Positions 33,689-48,202 of a DNA stretch of 53,088 nucleotides are shown here, in pieces. Each line of letters opens with the position of its first letter. The first letter of the stretch is position 1. This DNA comes from Verrucomicrobiota bacterium (lineage in GTDB: Bacteria; Verrucomicrobiota; Verrucomicrobiia; Chthoniobacterales; UBA10450), in the NCBI GenBank assembly GCA_003218305.1, contig QHMY01000046.1, positions 1-53,088 on the forward strand, read 5' to 3'. The notes beneath the pieces are model-generated. The model did not search any database. It was given only the letters and a program-made list of their open reading frames with translations, and had not been told where the DNA came from. The translations under genes were made by a program, and so were the position numbers.

Positions 33689-33823
33689 GTTCGACAAGCC
33701 TCCCCAAGCAAGGTCCGAAGACCTCAATCGCGTCCCGGGAGTGAACTGGTTACTTTTTTTATGGAAAAAATTACAAAAAACCGCTTGCGCAGACCCTTCA
33801 TAGAGTGGATAGGGGGCGCTCCC

Positions 33824-34438
33824 GTGCGAAAAACTACTATCCTATCTACTATCCTTTGTGGTTGTGTGGCCGTGTCGGCCCAAGCCGCAGCTCGAACTGA
33901 CAGTCTGACTTTTAAACCGCATAGCGTTTTCCAGAAGAAGGCCGGCGAGCCGGATTCGACGCCTGAACCCCCCCAGTTCCAATTCAAAGACCGGAACGGC
34001 AAGACCGTTTCCGCGCCCATCGTTTCCGAGTATCAGAAGAAACGGATCGTCCACCCGCTGGCCAAGGTTGATCCGCGGCTGGATTCCCGTTTGAGCCGGG
34101 CCGCGAGCATCGCGGATGAGCGTGCCTACGCGCACTCGAAATCGCGCTGCTGGCGCTACGTGAAGCAGGCGCTTGTGGCCTCAGGGTTGGTTTCCTCCTA
34201 CCCCAAGACGGCGCTGGCCAAGCAGGCTGGCGACGAACTGGTGCGGGATTATGGTTTCAAGAAATTGCCAATTCGCGATCCCTACGCGGCCCCCATCGGC
34301 TCGGTCCTGGTTTACTACAAAGGCCGCAGTGCTGCCGGCCATGTCGAGATTCGGACAAAGTCCGGTTTCGTGAGCGATTTCCGTTCGAAAGACGCCTGCC
34401 GGGCGGCGCTCATCGGCGTTTACGCCAAGGGCTCGTAA
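33824..34438 (+). CDS. Secreted CHAP/NlpC-P60-like protein, paralogue 1
   Basis: A 204-aa exported protein from a GTG (33824) preceded by AGGGGG and followed by a signal peptide (RKTTILSTILCGCVAVSAQA). ATG 33761 would add 21 residues and has no ribosome site. The C-terminal half looks like a Cys-His peptidase/amidase: Cys109 in SRCWRYVKQALVASG and His173 in AGHVEIRTKSGFVSD. About 50% identical in the mature domain to the gene at 35736, with the same Cys and His. Such domains cut peptidoglycan peptide bonds. The activity is inferred only from motif layout. Confidence 0.72.
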   Translation: MRKTTILSTILCGCVAVSAQAAARTDSLTFKPHSVFQKKAGEPDSTPEPPQFQFKDRNGKTVSAPIVSEYQKKRIVHPLAKVDPRLDSRLSRAASIADERAYAHSKSRCWRYVKQALVASGLVSSYPKTALAKQAGDELVRDYGFKKLPIRDPYAAPIGSVLVYYKGRSAAGHVEIRTKSGFVSDFRSKDACRAALIGVYAKGS

Positions 34439-35632: not shown

Positions 35633-35735
35633 TCAGCATCATTTACAGCGAATAGCTCACTGTCGGAGAAATAGTTAGCTATCGAGGAGAAAAGGGCTTG
35701 CCACGCTGGTACGCGCCTTGCATACAGAGAATGCC

Positions 35736-36293
35736 GTGCGACGTCTTCTCTTACTGGTTTTTATAGTTGGCTTCGGCCTATCGCTTTCCGCAATCGAAGT
35801 CCGTTCTGAAGGACTCGCTTCATCCAAGACGAGATTTTATTATCGGACCCCGCAGGGGTATCCCGGTTCGGCTCGCATTATTCGCCATTACTGGAATGTG
35901 CCGGTGGTTCACCCGGATGCGCAGGTCGATGTGCGGCTGGATCCCCGGCTCCGACGCGCGGCCACCATTGCCCAGGAACGGGCCAATGCGAGCTCCCGCT
36001 CCCGCTGCTGGCGTTCCGTAAAGGAAGCGCTGCTTGCCTCCGGCGTAATTAACTCCTATCCGAAAACGAATTATGCCTCAGAGGCGGGTGACGAGCTGGT
36101 GCGCAACTATGGATTCAAGCGTCTGCCCGTCCGGGATCAATTCGCGGCGCCGATAGGTGCGGTGCTCGTCTTTGGTCACGGCGCTACCGGCCATGTGGTC
36201 ATTCGGACCAAGACCGGTTTTGTCAGCGATTACTGGACAAAGAACCGCTGCAAATATCCGTTGGTCGCGGTTTACGGAAAATACTCTTCGTAG
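35736..36293 (+). CDS. Secreted CHAP/NlpC-P60-like protein, paralogue 2
   Basis: A 185-aa exported protein. The GTG at 35736 followed by RRLLLLVFIVGFGLSLSA gives a good signal peptide and matches the GTG start of paralogue 1; a TTG at 35718 is an alternative. Catalytic-like Cys91 (SRCWRSVKEALLASG) and His153 (GHVVIRTKTGFVSD) align with the first copy. The N-terminal 40 residues of the mature protein are not similar to the other copy. It and paralogue 1 flank the hydroquinone reductase gene, which suggests a local duplication. Confidence 0.72.
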   Translation: MRRLLLLVFIVGFGLSLSAIEVRSEGLASSKTRFYYRTPQGYPGSARIIRHYWNVPVVHPDAQVDVRLDPRLRRAATIAQERANASSRSRCWRSVKEALLASGVINSYPKTNYASEAGDELVRNYGFKRLPVRDQFAAPIGAVLVFGHGATGHVVIRTKTGFVSDYWTKNRCKYPLVAVYGKYSS

Positions 36294-36324: not shown

Positions 36325-36341
36325 GTTTACCGCAGGTAAAC
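36325..36341. terminator. Hairpin at the end of two convergent genes
   Basis: Perfect 7-bp stem GTTTACC / GGTAAAC with GCA loop, at the ends of the CHAP-like gene (36293) and of the HNH-like gene, whose TAA stop (36327-36329) is inside the stem. A short T run follows on the minus side only (CTTT). Confidence 0.4.
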
Positions 36342-36767
36342 GATCCCGAAGTACTCGACAAAGCAGGCGATCCAATCCTCGCTGATTTCCTTTTGGGCCT
36401 GCGCAAGGGTCATCTTCCCCGCGGCGATGCGGGCCAGGAGATGGCGCGTCAGCAGTTCTTTTCGCTCCACGTTGTAGGGTCTGGCGGAGAGACTTTGCGG
36501 CCACAGATTTTCGACAACATCCGCGCCACCGAGTTCGGTGGGAATAAGGTGATCGACCTTAAATTCGGAGCGCCTCCGCCAGGGGATGTGATAACGGGAG
36601 AACATTCGCCGCTCCATTTCCTCAGTAACGCCGGCGCGATCCTTATCTCCCCGCGCCACCTTTCCCGGCGTGAGTTTCCGATTCGGCAGCAGTTCTTCTC
36701 CTGCGCGGGCTGAACCCGCCAGAGACAGGACGATCAGGAAAGCTGCGAGCGTAAGTCGAATATTCAA
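36327..36767 (-). CDS. Exported HNH-like nuclease-fold protein
   Basis: A 146-aa protein: signal peptide (1-22, ending SARA), then a short domain with KVDHLIPTELGG (Asp72, His73), NLWPQ (Asn87) and the following basic helix (ARPYNVERKEL). This D-H...N-L-W-P-Q order resembles the HNH zinc-finger nuclease fold, where the His is the general base. It could be an exported nuclease for nutrient scavenging. The second His of classical HNH is not seen (YN instead), so an inactive member is possible. Confidence 0.68.
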   Translation of the reverse strand: MNIRLTLAAFLIVLSLAGSARAGEELLPNRKLTPGKVARGDKDRAGVTEEMERRMFSRYHIPWRRRSEFKVDHLIPTELGGADVVENLWPQSLSARPYNVERKELLTRHLLARIAAGKMTLAQAQKEISEDWIACFVEYFGIVYLR

Positions 36768-38898: not shown

Positions 38899-39642
38899 AT
38901 GTCGGAATCGACCTCGCCCGTTCGCATCGCGATGTGGTCCGGCCCGCGTAACATTTCGACCGCGATGATGCGGTCGTGGGGGAATCGGCCGGACACGTTT
39001 GTGTGCGACGAGCCGTTTTACGCGCATTATCTGCAGGCAACGGGACGCGGTCATCCCGGCGCTGAAGAAGTGATCGCCCGCGGCGAGACGGATTGGCGAA
39101 AGGTGGTGGAGCAACTGACCGGCCCCGTCCCCGATGGGAAACGTGTTTTTTACCAGAAACAGATGACGCATCATTTGTTGCCCGAGATCGACCGCGCCTG
39201 GCTTCTCGAGGTGACGAATTGTTTTCTAATCCGCGACCCACGCGAAGTGATCGTCTCGTACATCAAGAAGAACAACGATCCATCCCTGGATGACATCGGT
39301 TTCGTCCAACAAGCCGAGATTTTCGATTGGGTGCGCGCGGAGAGAGGCAGCCCGTCCCTGGTGCTTGACGCACGCGACGTCATCGAAAATCCGAAAAAAA
39401 TTCTGGAGTTGCTCTGCGATAAAGTCGGCGTTGAATTCACCGCCGCGATGCTCTCGTGGGCTCCCGGTTTGCGTGCGACCGACGGGATTTGGGCGAAGCA
39501 TTGGTATGGCGAAGTGGCGACCTCGACGACTTTTCGCAAGCCTTCAGGGCGTGACTCGGAGGAGGTGCCAGCGCGTTTGAGAGAGGTTTATGAGCGGGCG
39601 CAGGAATGTTACGCGCGCCTCCATCAATATCGATTGCGTTAG
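38899..39642 (+). CDS. Sulfotransferase-like P-loop protein
   Basis: A 247-aa soluble protein with a P-loop-like motif SGPRNIST (14-21) and LIRDPREVIVSY (PAPS 3'-phosphate-like binding motif; R-D-P-R-E). In these features it resembles sulfotransferases, but the P-loop lysine of typical members is absent (GPRNIST). It is followed after 48 bp by an aminotransferase-fold gene. In plants (BCAT-like protein 1 / 2 family) an N-terminal domain of this type (SGPRSLST) is fused to such an aminotransferase domain. I infer that the two bacterial products act together; the reaction is unknown. Confidence 0.75.
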   Translation: MSESTSPVRIAMWSGPRNISTAMMRSWGNRPDTFVCDEPFYAHYLQATGRGHPGAEEVIARGETDWRKVVEQLTGPVPDGKRVFYQKQMTHHLLPEIDRAWLLEVTNCFLIRDPREVIVSYIKKNNDPSLDDIGFVQQAEIFDWVRAERGSPSLVLDARDVIENPKKILELLCDKVGVEFTAAMLSWAPGLRATDGIWAKHWYGEVATSTTFRKPSGRDSEEVPARLREVYERAQECYARLHQYRLR

Positions 39643-39652
39643 AAGGCGTCGC

Positions 39653-39688
39653 ATAGGTCATATAGGTCGGATAGGTCCCATAGGTCGT
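39653..39688 (+). repeat. Four 9-bp tandem ATAGGTC units
   Basis: ATAGGTC-N2 starts at 39653, 39662, 39671 and 39680, just before the ATG at 39691. The variable two bases are AT, GG, CC, GT. No Shine-Dalgarno is seen after it, so the array may replace the leader or be a slipped-strand repeat. Confidence 0.7.
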
Positions 39689-39690
39689 AT

Positions 39691-40590
39691 ATGCTCCAGC
39701 AATTCCACGAGAAGAACCGCGACCTCCTGGTGAACATCAACGGCGAGCTCGTGCACCGGGACAAGGCCGGGGTGAGCCCGTTTGATTCCGCGGTCCAGGG
39801 GGGCGATGCCGTCTGGGAAGGACTGCGGCTTTATGACGGCCGCATCTTCAAATTGCACGAACATCTGGCCCGGCTCCGGCATTCTGCGGAAGCACTCTCC
39901 TTTGCTGAGATTCCGCCGGACGAAAAGATTATCGATGCGATCAGGCGCACCCTGGCCGCGAACAAGATGCGGGACGGTGTTCATATCCGCCTGACCGTGA
40001 CCCGTGGCGTAAAGACAACTTCGGGGATGGATCCCCGGCTGAATCAAACCGGGCCAACTTTGATCGTCCTGGCTGAACACAAGCCGCCGGTTTATGCGAA
40101 AACCGGGCTGACGTTGGTCACGAGCACCATCCGCCGTCCGCCGCCGGAGATTCTCGACCCGAGAATTCATCACGCCAATTTGCTGAACTCCATCCTGGCC
40201 AAGATCGAGGCGAACAAAGCCGGCGCGGATGACGCGCTCATGCTCGATACCCGCGGGTTCGTGGCAGAAACCAATGCCACCCATGTGTTCCTCGTCCGCG
40301 AGAACAAAGTCACCACGCCGCGGGTGCTGGCCTGTCCGGAAGGAATCACCCGCGCAACCGTGCTCGAGATTTGCGCGGCCAATAGGATCCCATGCGGCGA
40401 ATGCGACTTATCTCTCGAGGAGGTTTATCGCGCGGACGAGATGTTCTGCACCGGCACGATGGGCGAATTGGCTGGCGTCATTAAGGTAGACGGGCGTACC
40501 ATCGGCGGTGGCGAAATTGGGCCCATGACGCTCCGGCTGAGCGGATTGTTCGCGGAGCGGACCGCCCGGGAAGGCGTCGAAGTTGTCTAG
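39691..40590 (+). CDS. Class IV aminotransferase-fold protein lacking the PLP lysine
   Basis: A 299-aa fold type IV protein close to branched-chain and D-amino-acid aminotransferases: DSAVQGGDAVWEGLRLY near 30-46, RLTVTRGVKT, ILAKIEANKAGADDALMLD, AETNATHVFLV, PEGITRATVLEI, CTGTMGELAGV. The family places the Schiff-base Lys three residues before N in KSLNYL; here that stretch reads IHHANLL, so His160 replaces Lys and no other Lys is near. Thus usual transamination is doubtful, though the phosphate-binding GITR and TGT loops are kept. The gene ends in TAG inside an inverted-repeat element. Naming it ilvE would be unsafe. Confidence 0.85.
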   Translation: MLQQFHEKNRDLLVNINGELVHRDKAGVSPFDSAVQGGDAVWEGLRLYDGRIFKLHEHLARLRHSAEALSFAEIPPDEKIIDAIRRTLAANKMRDGVHIRLTVTRGVKTTSGMDPRLNQTGPTLIVLAEHKPPVYAKTGLTLVTSTIRRPPPEILDPRIHHANLLNSILAKIEANKAGADDALMLDTRGFVAETNATHVFLVRENKVTTPRVLACPEGITRATVLEICAANRIPCGECDLSLEEVYRADEMFCTGTMGELAGVIKVDGRTIGGGEIGPMTLRLSGLFAERTAREGVEVV

Positions 40591-44323: not shown

Positions 44324-45396
44324 TTAACCTGCGGACACCCGCAGTCGTATTTCCAACACAGCCGGTTCCTGGCCCGGAGGGAGCGCTACCACCGGCAGCC
44401 ACAGTTGAGGATCGATTCCGGTGATCTTCAGCCGCAGGGCGGTTGGATGATCCAGGCGTTCGAGGTCGCCCCGCAGGGTAATCGATTCGAATCCAGTTCG
44501 GTCGGATGCGGAGAAATAAGTGGAGCCGGCCTTCGTCAGCTGAATGGACGTAATTTCAATGACGGTGAGGGCGCTGACGAAATCGATGCGAAGCGGAGCG
44601 GCCCCCGCTCCCGGTGGGAGTTCGATGCGGACCTCCTTCCATCCCTCATGCCCAATGCGGGCCTGACTCGAGTCCTCTTCGCGGTGCTCTCCATTTTCGG
44701 TGTAGAAAATCTGAACAACCGTCTGCTGAGCGAATGCCGTCTGACGGATCGTTCCGTCGCGCCAATGCTCGGCGAGTTTGCGCTGCATTTCCCCGGCGAG
44801 CGCAGTGTAATATTTTCCCAGGGCGGAATTCAATTCGTTGGGCGGCGCCAGGAGCTGTTCGAGAAATCCGGGTAATTCTTGTGCGGGCGGCTTCTGCCAG
44901 ACCCCGAGACCCGGGCCGTCATGAAAGGTCCAGGCGCGCCCGGGCGGATTTTCGGCAGCCACGCCTCGAGATCGTGCCGCACGGCTTCTTCGGTGTGAAG
45001 GCCGTCGAGATGAAGAACGTCGATGCTCCCAGGCGAAAATGTTTCACACGCCTCGTCAAAGTCCGCGCGGATGAGGGTCGAAAACGCTTCGTAATTCTCT
45101 CGATTGTGCGCGGAAATCTGTGCAAACGTCGTCTCATCATAGCCACCCGCATGTTGATCGCCTTGCCACGTATCGACCCCAAAGCATCGGGTGCCGGTCT
45201 GATTTTCCACCGCCGCCTGGCAAAAGGCGAAGTAGCTTTCCCCCCGATCCACGCCCAGCTCGACGAGCAAGCCTGGTTTCAGCGTCGCGACCAGGTCGTA
45301 GGCAAAGGCGATGTGGTCGGTCCAAGCCCCGACTCCATAGATGCGGGGCGCGAAATTGCGCGAAGGTAAAGCGCTATCGATCTTATCCAGTTTCAT
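44324..45396 (-). pseudogene. Class I methyltransferase with C-terminal beta-sandwich, broken by a frameshift
   Basis: Two overlapping frames together give one protein. The first (45396 to about 44945) has VELGVDRGESYFAFC (SAM-binding), HLDGLHTEEAVRHDLEAWLPKIRPG of a Methyltransf_24-type enzyme; homology stops there. The other frame resumes at once with WTFHDGPGLGVW, the expected next motif, and runs to 44324 with a beta-rich C-terminal region (FSALT ... ITSIQL). A single missing base in the GC-rich stretch near 44934-44946 explains this. It is either a true pseudogene or a sequencing/assembly error. Its ATG overlaps the ATG of the divergent glycosyltransferase gene. Confidence 0.75.
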
Positions 45397-48202
45397 GGAG
45401 ACGAGCCACGATAACGCGACGCAGCAGAAAAGTCAGCGGCCACACCTCCTGGTAGTTTCTCACGAGACAACCCTGAGTGGCGCGCCCATCCAGCTGATTC
45501 ATCTCGCCGGCTGGCTCAGGTCCCGCGGATGGGAAATCGCGCTGGTGGCCCCGGAGGATGGACCTGTCCTTGAGCCCCTTCGGAAATCGGGAGTCGAGCT
45601 GATCTTCGAGGCCCAGTTACTGATCGATCCCGCCTACGCCGCGCTCCGCCGGCTGGCGGCCCGGTTCGATCTGGTCCTCGCGAACACCGTTGCGACCTGG
45701 GAGGCGGTCCAGGCTGCGCATCTCGAGCAGAGACCGGTCGTCTGGTACCTGCATGAGACTCAGGTGGGTGTCGAGCTGATGAAACTGATTCACATGATCG
45801 AGCCGTCATTGGGGCTGGCTGACGCCCTGATCGTTCCGACAAAAACGACAGCCAGGATTTATCAGCCGCTCACCAGGCGCCCGATTCAGGTCGTACCTTA
45901 CGGAATTCCCGATCTCGGCCGGACCTCGCCGCGACCTTCCGACAAGCGGGTGACCTTCGTCACCACGGCCACCTACGAATCACGCAAAGGCCAGGACATT
46001 CTGCTCGAAGCAATTACGCGGCTGGACCCAGACGTCCGCGAGAAGGGGAATTTCGTCATGGCGGGCCGGCCGCTGGAGACGGAGTTTCATGAACAGCTTC
46101 GCGTTCGCAGCCGGGAATTTAGCAATGTGCGATTGCTGGGGCCGCTCGAGCACCAGCAATCAATCGACCTCCTTCGCGATGCCGACGTGGTGGTTTGTCC
46201 GTCGCGGGACGAAACCATGCCGATTTTCCTGCTCGAAGGAATGGGCCTCGGCCGGGCCTTGATTGCCACCGATGTAGGTGGCGTGAGCGAGTGGCTCCAT
46301 GACGGCGAGAATGCCCTGGTGGTCCCGTCGCAGGACTCGGCGGCGCTGGCGGTGGCGATTGAGCGCTGCATCAAGGATCGCGAGCTAATTCACCGCCTGG
46401 CTGATCGGGCTCGAGAAACGTTCGAGCGACATTTCACTCTCGATCGTTTCGGGGAGCAATTTGAAGCGACCCTGCTGGAGGCGGTCGAATCGCGGGAGAG
46501 CTCAGCCCAGCCGGGCAGCTACGAAGAGTGGGCGGAATTGTACGAAACGCCGCGAGAGTTCGATCGCATTGCTCTTCGGCAGGCCATCGAAACGTTCGCG
46601 CAGCGTCCGCTCTTTTCCATCTTGCTCCCGGTTTACAATCCCAATCTCGATTGGTTGACCGACGCGATCGATTCCGTCCGGCGCCAGATTTACGAGAACT
46701 GGGAACTTTGCATCGCCGACGACGCCTCGACGGACCAGAGCGTTCGGCCATTCCTTCAGGAGCAAGCCGCGAGGGACAAGCGGATCAAATTAGTTTTCCG
46801 GAAAGAGAACGGACATATTTCCGCTTGCTCGAATTCAGCGCTCGCGCTGGCCACGGGCGAATGGTGCTCGCTTCTCGATCAGGATGACACGCTGGCCGAG
46901 CACGCTCTGGCTCTGGTCGCGCGGGAAGTGAATGAGCATCCTGACGCTGGGCTGATCTACTCCGACGAAGACAAGATCGATTTGGAGGGGGACCGCTCCA
47001 ATCCGTTTTTCAAAACCGATTGGAACCCGGAATTGTTTTTGGGGCAAAACTACATCAATCACCTCGGCTCCTACCGGACCTCACTGCTGCGTGAGATAGG
47101 TGGTTTTCGCGAGGGATTCGAAGGTTCGCAGGATTATGACCTCGCGCTTCGCTGTATCGAGCGCTTGCAGACGCACCAGGTTCGGCACATTCCGCGCATC
47201 CTCTATCATTGGCGGATGGTTCCGGGCAGCCTCGCGGAAGTGCGCGACGCGAAACCATACGCCAAAGATGCCGCCCGGCTGGCCTTGAATAGCCACTTGG
47301 AGCGGACCGGAATCGCGGCCCGCGCGGAACTGTGCCCGGAAAACGTCGAATCGCATCGCGTGATTTTCGATGTGCCTGAGCCGCGGCCTCGCGTCGCGAT
47401 GATTATCGCGGCCAGGAATCACGGGTCCCACGTGTCTCAATCCGTCGAAAGCATCAGGCCGTATCTTGATTCGCGAGACGAGGTCATCATCGCGACCAAC
47501 GGCGGCGGGGAGGACGATCTTGCAGCGCTGGAAAAGCGAGGCGGGATCGTATTGCGAGACGACTTCGGATCGAATCTTGGCCGGATGAATAATGTCGCGG
47601 CAGCGCGGGCCACGGCTGAAATATTGTTGTTTCTGGATGCCGGACTAAAACCAGCGGGCGAGGAGTGGTTGCGGGAAATGATCAGCCAGGCCAGCCGGCG
47701 GGACGTGGGAGTGGTGGGTGCGCGAATCTGGTCTACGCAAGGTCTTCTGGCACAGGGAGGATTCATTCTCGGATTGGGTGGAATCGTGGGCGTGGCGCAC
47801 GCTGGAATTCCGCGCGGGCACGCCGGCTTTTTCAATCGCTCTTTTCTCCAACGGAATTGCGCCGCGGTTTCTTCGGACTGCCTGGCCGTGCGAGCAAAAG
47901 TGTTTCGAGACCTGGGCGGCTTTGAGGAGAAGAAGCTCGTCGAGAACTTCCAAGATCTGGATTTTTGCTTACGTGCGTGGGATCGCGGGTTGCAAGTCGT
48001 TTGGACTCCCTACGCTGAACTCGTGGCGAGTGAGTCGGGAGTTTTTTTGGCGCCGCTGAGTGGGCCGGACGCCGATTATATCCGGGAACGGTGGGCCGTC
48101 CGCTTAAACGAAGACCCCTTCTACAGCCCTAACTTGTCGCTCGCCTTGCCGGGATTGTTCGGGTTAGCGTTTCCGCCTCGCTGGCTCCATGCCCGCGGTT
48201 GA
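45395..48202 (+). CDS. Three-module glycosyltransferase (GT4 + GT2 + GT2-like)
   Basis: A 935-aa cytosolic protein with three glycosyltransferase modules. Residues about 15-365 are GT4-like (SHETTLSGAP, HETQVG, LEGMGLGRALIATDVGG with the E-x7-E motif). About 400-620 are GT2 (FSILLPVYNPN, DDASTD, DQDDTL as D-x-D, then EGSQDYDLALR). About 660-900 is a second GT2-like module, but DxD reads DAG (LFLDAGL) and the nucleotide loop IIATNGGG, so it may be inactive. The start is ATG 45395; ATG 45341 would overlap the pseudogene further. It converges with the next gene at 30 bp. Confidence 0.85.
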   Translation: METSHDNATQQKSQRPHLLVVSHETTLSGAPIQLIHLAGWLRSRGWEIALVAPEDGPVLEPLRKSGVELIFEAQLLIDPAYAALRRLAARFDLVLANTVATWEAVQAAHLEQRPVVWYLHETQVGVELMKLIHMIEPSLGLADALIVPTKTTARIYQPLTRRPIQVVPYGIPDLGRTSPRPSDKRVTFVTTATYESRKGQDILLEAITRLDPDVREKGNFVMAGRPLETEFHEQLRVRSREFSNVRLLGPLEHQQSIDLLRDADVVVCPSRDETMPIFLLEGMGLGRALIATDVGGVSEWLHDGENALVVPSQDSAALAVAIERCIKDRELIHRLADRARETFERHFTLDRFGEQFEATLLEAVESRESSAQPGSYEEWAELYETPREFDRIALRQAIETFAQRPLFSILLPVYNPNLDWLTDAIDSVRRQIYENWELCIADDASTDQSVRPFLQEQAARDKRIKLVFRKENGHISACSNSALALATGEWCSLLDQDDTLAEHALALVAREVNEHPDAGLIYSDEDKIDLEGDRSNPFFKTDWNPELFLGQNYINHLGSYRTSLLREIGGFREGFEGSQDYDLALRCIERLQTHQVRHIPRILYHWRMVPGSLAEVRDAKPYAKDAARLALNSHLERTGIAARAELCPENVESHRVIFDVPEPRPRVAMIIAARNHGSHVSQSVESIRPYLDSRDEVIIATNGGGEDDLAALEKRGGIVLRDDFGSNLGRMNNVAAARATAEILLFLDAGLKPAGEEWLREMISQASRRDVGVVGARIWSTQGLLAQGGFILGLGGIVGVAHAGIPRGHAGFFNRSFLQRNCAAVSSDCLAVRAKVFRDLGGFEEKKLVENFQDLDFCLRAWDRGLQVVWTPYAELVASESGVFLAPLSGPDADYIRERWAVRLNEDPFYSPNLSLALPGLFGLAFPPRWLHARG

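Follow-up and report, generated by a model that had tools for sequence, protein, structure and literature searches.

Co-inheritance of a predicted sulfotransferase and a lysine-less aminotransferase-like protein across bacterial phyla

A predicted sulfotransferase (ST) and a fold-IV aminotransferase-like protein (AT) that lacks the PLP Schiff-base lysine are encoded next to each other in a Verrucomicrobiota genome, and the two genes are inherited together across several bacterial phyla. We searched 879 genomes from four class-level draws for both genes; ST was found in 73, of which 72 also encode a lysine-less AT and 63 carry the two genes adjacent on one strand, in keeping with the consistent linkage across bacteria that the original prediction for this locus had supposed. 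Six of the 73 ST carriers were known before the draws (G000, G297, G300, G302, G517, and G519), and excluding them leaves a lysine-less AT in 66 of 67 ST genomes. PLP aminotransferases are characterized by their Schiff-base lysine, and a clade that apparently lost it once, is strongly constrained, and accompanies ST in this way points to an unrecognized PLP-fold chemistry and to an unrecognized sulfated metabolite. Such strong coupling makes it almost certain that the two genes serve a common metabolic step. We consider it about an even bet that they constitute a metabolic module of two enzymes, in which lysine-less PLP-fold chemistry is followed by PAPS-dependent sulfation.

The gene pair and its active-site residues

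The window, by which we mean the whole stretch of DNA analyzed, comprises 53,088 nucleotides (contig QHMY01000046.1). From its letters, the original prediction described a 247-aa protein with an SGPRNIST motif followed by a lysine-less aminotransferase-fold gene, and both open reading frames are present as such on the forward strand, with a histidine at residue 160 of AT in place of the lysine. The features discussed below are as follows.

38899..39642, + strand: ST gene, encoding a 247-aa Sulfotransfer_5 protein (PF19798; Pfam E value, 5e-56), a predicted PAPS-dependent sulfotransferase
38938..38961, + strand: ST residues 14-21, SGPRNIST, a P-loop-like and, by the sulfotransferase fold, probable 5'-phosphosulfate-binding loop with Arg for the usual Lys
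39223..39261, + strand: ST residues 109-121, FLIRDPREVIVSY, with Arg112 and Ser120 as the probable 3'-phosphate-binding residues
39643..39690, + strand: intergenic spacer between ST and AT, 48 bp
39691..40590, + strand: AT gene, encoding a 299-aa lysine-less fold-IV aminotransferase-like protein (PF01063; Pfam E value, 2e-46), His type
39871..39873, + strand: AT Arg61, invariant, retained PLP-phosphate site (144/144 lysine-less and 37/37 Lys-bearing sequences)
39982..39984, + strand: AT His98, Tyr in near Lys-bearing relatives (144/144 lysine-less versus 0/37)
40012..40014, + strand: AT Lys108, a new invariant lysine, Gly in near Lys-bearing relatives (144/144 versus 0/37)
40168..40170, + strand: AT His160, in the column of the PLP Schiff-base lysine (alignment with BCAT 5cm0)
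40267..40275, + strand: AT Glu193 to Asn195, with Glu as the likely ring-nitrogen contact of PLP and Asn as a likely second-shell residue, by analogy (PMC12429042)

ST scores 190 bits against PF19798 (cut-off, 23.2) and AT 159 bits against PF01063 (cut-off, 28.5). Many NCBIfam transaminase models also match AT, every one with a score below its curated cut-off, and since the Schiff-base lysine is missing we describe the protein as aminotransferase-like and do not file it as an aminotransferase. The source genome, whose nearest relatives are Spartobacteria/Chthoniobacterales MAGs, has a single copy of ST and a single match to AT at an E value of 1e-60 or better. Elsewhere in the window, two similar predicted secreted proteins of ~200 aa (33761-34438 and 35718-36293; SRCWRYVK...GHV.IRTKSGFVSD), neither with a Pfam match, flank a GST gene, and a homologous cluster lies near ST-AT in 18 fetched loci. 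The gene at 36327-36767 is on the - strand; its 146-aa product, without a Pfam match, is predicted to be secreted and contains an HNH-like stretch (DHLIPTELGG...NLWPQS). The 953-aa protein at 45341-48202 joins GT4-type and GT2-type glycosyltransferase domains.

The ST model (AlphaFold2 pLDDT, 94) has the fold of PAPS sulfotransferases; the closest solved folds are those of tyrosylprotein sulfotransferases and of the OLS/CurM sulfotransferases, at a Z score of about 14 (14.2 for both TPST-1 with PAP and the OLS sulfotransferase), and its profile reaches CurM at an E value of 8e-9. The SGPRNIST loop, part of the motif WSGPRNISTA at residues 13-22, is near-invariant across 88 ST sequences, and R112 and S120 are present in all 88. 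An APS kinase is encoded in the source genome, yet one is found in nearly every genome, so that PAPS supply does not discriminate and was set aside as evidence for the pair. Distant Sulfotransfer_5 genes on a Dolichospermum plasmid (L196; CP070234.1) and a Streptomyces plasmid (L197; NZ_CP108701.1) adjoin the PAPS-making genes cysC and cysC-cysD, respectively, and the Streptomyces gene lies within an NRPS cluster.

The AT model (pLDDT, 93) matches fold-IV transaminases at Z scores of 32 to 39. Alignment of PPNIKSLNYLNN from the Lys-bearing BCAT 5cm0 with DPRIHHANLLNS from the window AT places His160 in the lysine column, the IKSLN of 5cm0, which holds the Schiff-base lysine, corresponding to IHHAN. 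Of 181 distinct AT homologs, 95 have His in this column, 49 have Asn, and 37 have Lys, so His160 is no isolated mutation. Every fold-IV homolog found adjoining ST has His or Asn here, and ST was not found in the flanks of 24 fetched close Lys-bearing loci; loss of the lysine is confined to the clade that partners ST.

Six AT residues (N9, W42, H98, K108, E129, and N195) are present in all 144 lysine-less sequences and in none of the 37 Lys-bearing ones. The phosphate side of the cofactor site is retained as well: all 144 lysine-less sequences have R61 and T220, almost all have T256, and this PLP-phosphate cup (Arg61, Thr220, and Thr256) is conserved together with Glu193 in the window AT and the His type. 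Glu193 is found in all His types, with Thr or Ser instead in all Asn types. In related enzymes, a Glu at this position and a second-shell Asn two residues on hold the PLP nitrogen (PMC12429042), an arrangement that, by analogy, makes a similar role for N195 plausible. The Asn type, having no Glu for the ring nitrogen, may differ from the His type in its chemistry. Since Asn is unable to act as a base, whatever chemistry the two types share should depend on residues found in both, with H98 and K108 as the best candidates.

Linkage, co-occurrence, and shared history

Each of the four classes contributes to the association. The Verrucomicrobiia (286 genomes) carry ST in 13 and a His-type AT in 16; 12 of the STs adjoin a His-type AT and the thirteenth adjoins a truncated Asn-type AT. 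In the Alphaproteobacteria (210 genomes), ST was found in 22 and AT in 26, with both in 21 and the two adjacent in 16, and the Gammaproteobacteria (185 genomes), where His and Asn types are both present, have ST in 5, AT in 6, both in 5, and an adjacent pair in 4. The two genes occupy an identical set of 33 genomes in the Planctomycetia (198 genomes) and are adjacent in 30 of them, always with ST upstream on the same strand. Co-occurrence is far above chance by hypergeometric tests that ignore phylogeny (P values of 5e-17 in Verrucomicrobiia, 3e-22 in Alphaproteobacteria, and about 1e-36 to 1e-38 in Planctomycetia). Much weaker second Sulfotransfer_5 copies were seen in two genomes (G327:C1:2206226-2206849, 80 bits, with no adjoining AT, and G772:C1:6283410-6284042, 76 bits).

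That such a pattern could reflect shared synteny and phylogenetic inertia only, with no functional tie, is hardly credible and already largely refuted. This explanation could draw on the partial conservation of the Chthoniobacterales flanks (S9 peptidase and MutS) and on the tests' disregard of phylogeny, but the pair is also present in Planctomycetota, Pseudomonadota, Eisenbacteria, Gemmatimonadota, Abditibacteriota, and one archaeal MAG, with different flanks and in either gene order (ST-AT in His-type loci, AT-ST or ST-AT in Asn-type loci); moreover, it survives loss of linkage, both genes being retained at separate places in the unlinked cases, and it appears to have been co-transferred. 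No third partner gene or consistent pathway context recurs across phyla, and the S9 peptidase and MutS genes, conserved only within Chthoniobacterales, look like synteny and were rejected as partners. Viral candidates were likewise rejected: the sole match to ST (L236) is spurious, falling by chance within another gene, and both matches to AT are common class-IV transaminases that lack a neighboring ST.

The gene trees broadly agree, an outcome in line with the original prediction, which had named a shared history of the two domains as a check. In an AT tree that included Lys-bearing sequences from several fold-IV subfamilies and left out the trait column, the sampled lysine-less ATs form one clade (support, 98/97) that splits into His and Asn lineages. 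The tree of STs from linked loci, from which three long or odd sequences were excluded beforehand, divides along the same His/Asn line (SH-aLRT, 97). Over 77 pairs, AT and ST distances are correlated (r = 0.80; His type alone, 0.87; Asn type alone, 0.60), and permutations reached at most 0.26 to 0.39. In a wider ST tree that includes distant outgroups, the deep branches are poorly supported and a few long sequences are unstable in position, so the agreement rests on the linked-locus tree and the distance correlation. Two cross-phylum groupings, a planctomycete with a gammaproteobacterium (L079 and L082) and a Verrucomicrobium with an Alteromonad (L088 and L093), recur in both trees, which suggests that the pair has been transferred as a unit.

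The two domains also occur in one chain. A Spartobacteria MAG (L032:3983-5716; PLCM01000018.1) has a single 578-aa open reading frame with ST followed by AT, in which a GC-rich, partly palindromic spacer replaces the usual stop and spacer and the frame stays open. If this single MAG contig is sound, an assembly error being possible, it is a natural fusion with the domain order that the original prediction gave for plant proteins. The plant BCAT-like proteins At3g05190 and At5g27410 are putative fusions of this kind, with a sulfotransferase-like and then an aminotransferase-like domain in one chain. Chlamydomonas Cre01.g033763, a photosynthesis candidate (PMC8448359), matches in its description but fits an aminodeoxychorismate lyase equally well and was not used as evidence.

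One-sided dependence and the proposed chemistry

The dependence between the two genes is one-sided, of ST on AT. ST without a detected AT occurs in one surveyed genome (G358) and at five further loci from the first scan, mostly in MAGs (L043, L060, L063, L067, and L068), whereas AT without ST occurs in 10 surveyed genomes, nine of which were rechecked with the ST profile. The probable substrate of ST is therefore the product or ligand of AT. Most simply, AT would work on an amino or keto acid by itself and ST would modify what AT yields or binds, although another sulfotransferase could serve the AT-only genomes. Asn-type lysine-less ATs annotated as "aminotransferase class IV" are also found on roseobacter, Paracoccus, and Azospirillum plasmids (L210-L215), several of them in transporter operons. 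Those of the roseobacter type adjoin amino-acid or dicarboxylate-type transporters with no ST nearby, and a Ruegeria plasmid has an Asp/Glu racemase gene alongside as well. AT-only genomes keep the diagnostic residues, with the exception of Cys215 in two, and a comparison that included these genomes found no AT residues tracking ST loss beyond lineage differences. The diagnostic residues thus appear to be part of the function of AT itself and not of an interface with ST, and their persistence where ST is missing argues against decay of the protein.

These observations bear on what AT does for its partner. It might be a carrier or presenting subunit, holding an amino acid or PLP-amino-acid adduct with no turnover and offering it to ST within a stable complex; the pair would then amount to a single sulfotransferase whose substrate-binding subunit is a recycled PLP fold. 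A fusion would be a natural outcome, and the lost Schiff-base lysine, the tight linkage, the fused open reading frame, and the near absence of ST without AT all fit; we nevertheless consider this rather unlikely, since AT and its diagnostic residues persist in the 10 genomes lacking ST, the roseobacter Asn-type genes lie in transporter operons away from any ST, and the two genes stand apart in some genomes. That AT is a pseudoenzyme sensing PLP or an amino acid and regulating ST would accord with the lost catalytic lysine and the strong co-inheritance, but the invariant active-site residues and the persistence of AT without ST favor a function of its own, and we judge a regulatory role improbable.

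The reverse order of action is also conceivable, in that ST would sulfate a hydroxyl to make it a leaving group and AT, with pyridoxamine phosphate (PMP), would then eliminate the sulfate, the His type acting as ColD does. In sequence-profile comparison, the solved relatives closest to ST are the OLS and CurM sulfotransferases, which activate a beta-hydroxyl for elimination, and ColD, a His-based dehydratase, provides a precedent for His replacing Lys. Such sulfation-assisted elimination is nonetheless quite unlikely in our view: with ST acting first, one would expect AT to need ST, the opposite of the dependence observed, and the Asn of the Asn type could not be the base.

We therefore return to the two-enzyme module. 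The fold-IV site of AT, without a Schiff-base lysine, would accommodate PLP, PMP, or an adduct of PLP with an amino acid, and AT would act on an amino or keto acid via other residues, the candidates being His98 and Lys108, plus His160 in the His type; ST would then move sulfate from PAPS onto what AT makes or holds, the two proteins presumably sharing a small-molecule substrate and perhaps coming into physical contact. Co-inheritance, linkage, retention when unlinked, apparent joint transfer, and the Spartobacteria fusion support such a module, as do the PAPS sulfotransferase fold of ST and the distant PF19798 relatives near cysC and cysC-cysD. A bolder version, which we hold to be doubtful, is that a fold-IV lineage lost the Schiff-base lysine once, before the His/Asn split, with its chemistry moving to His98 and Lys108, and that together with a PAPS sulfotransferase it makes a widespread sulfated amino or keto acid in bacteria and some archaea, the two being fused in plants. 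Within that scenario, the new invariant Lys108 might be viewed as a migrated lysine, comparable with that of the WNK kinases.

Comparison with known systems

The original prediction spoke of an undescribed two-part system. The two genes do behave as one, and we found no description of an ST-AT pair in the open literature; the lysine-less fold itself, however, is already known, loss of the lysine in fold IV having been noticed structurally in 7z79 and 9j32. What is added here is that this loss marks one clade and accompanies a sulfotransferase, that the clade comprises two lineages (His and Asn), and that the dependence between the partners is one-sided. Nothing was found in the open literature on the function of the plant genes, 7z79, or 9j32, and the structurally solved, functionally unexplained 7z79 group now gains a candidate partner.

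The best solved match to AT is 7z79 itself, an aminotransferase-like protein of Variovorax paradoxus (41% identity; Z score, 38.8; root mean square deviation, 1.6), of which 9j32 is the lysine-restored mutant N174K. As the type structure of the lysine-less clade, it shares with the window AT the fold, the clade, the missing lysine, and W42, H98, K108, E129, and N195, but it has Asn for His in the lysine column and Ser for Glu193, and its nearest relatives in our data (L187 and L188) are in genomes without ST. The archaeal-type branched-chain aminotransferases (5cm0, 5e25, and 5mqz; PRK08320) are about as close, with ~42% identity over the full length and Z scores of 37 to 38, and share the PLP-phosphate residues of AT; unlike AT, they have the Schiff-base lysine, lack the six diagnostic residues, and show no linkage to ST.

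For ST, the OLS and CurM domains (4gox and 4gbm) and the tyrosylprotein sulfotransferases match in fold and in the region of the PAPS site, whereas ST differs from them in being a stand-alone protein of 247 aa, with 11 to 16% identity and an Arg in the P-loop. The plant BCAT-like proteins would have the same domain order as the His-type operon and the Spartobacteria fusion, and, if the plant fusion is real, there is a function to seek in these proteins, which are now named by similarity only.
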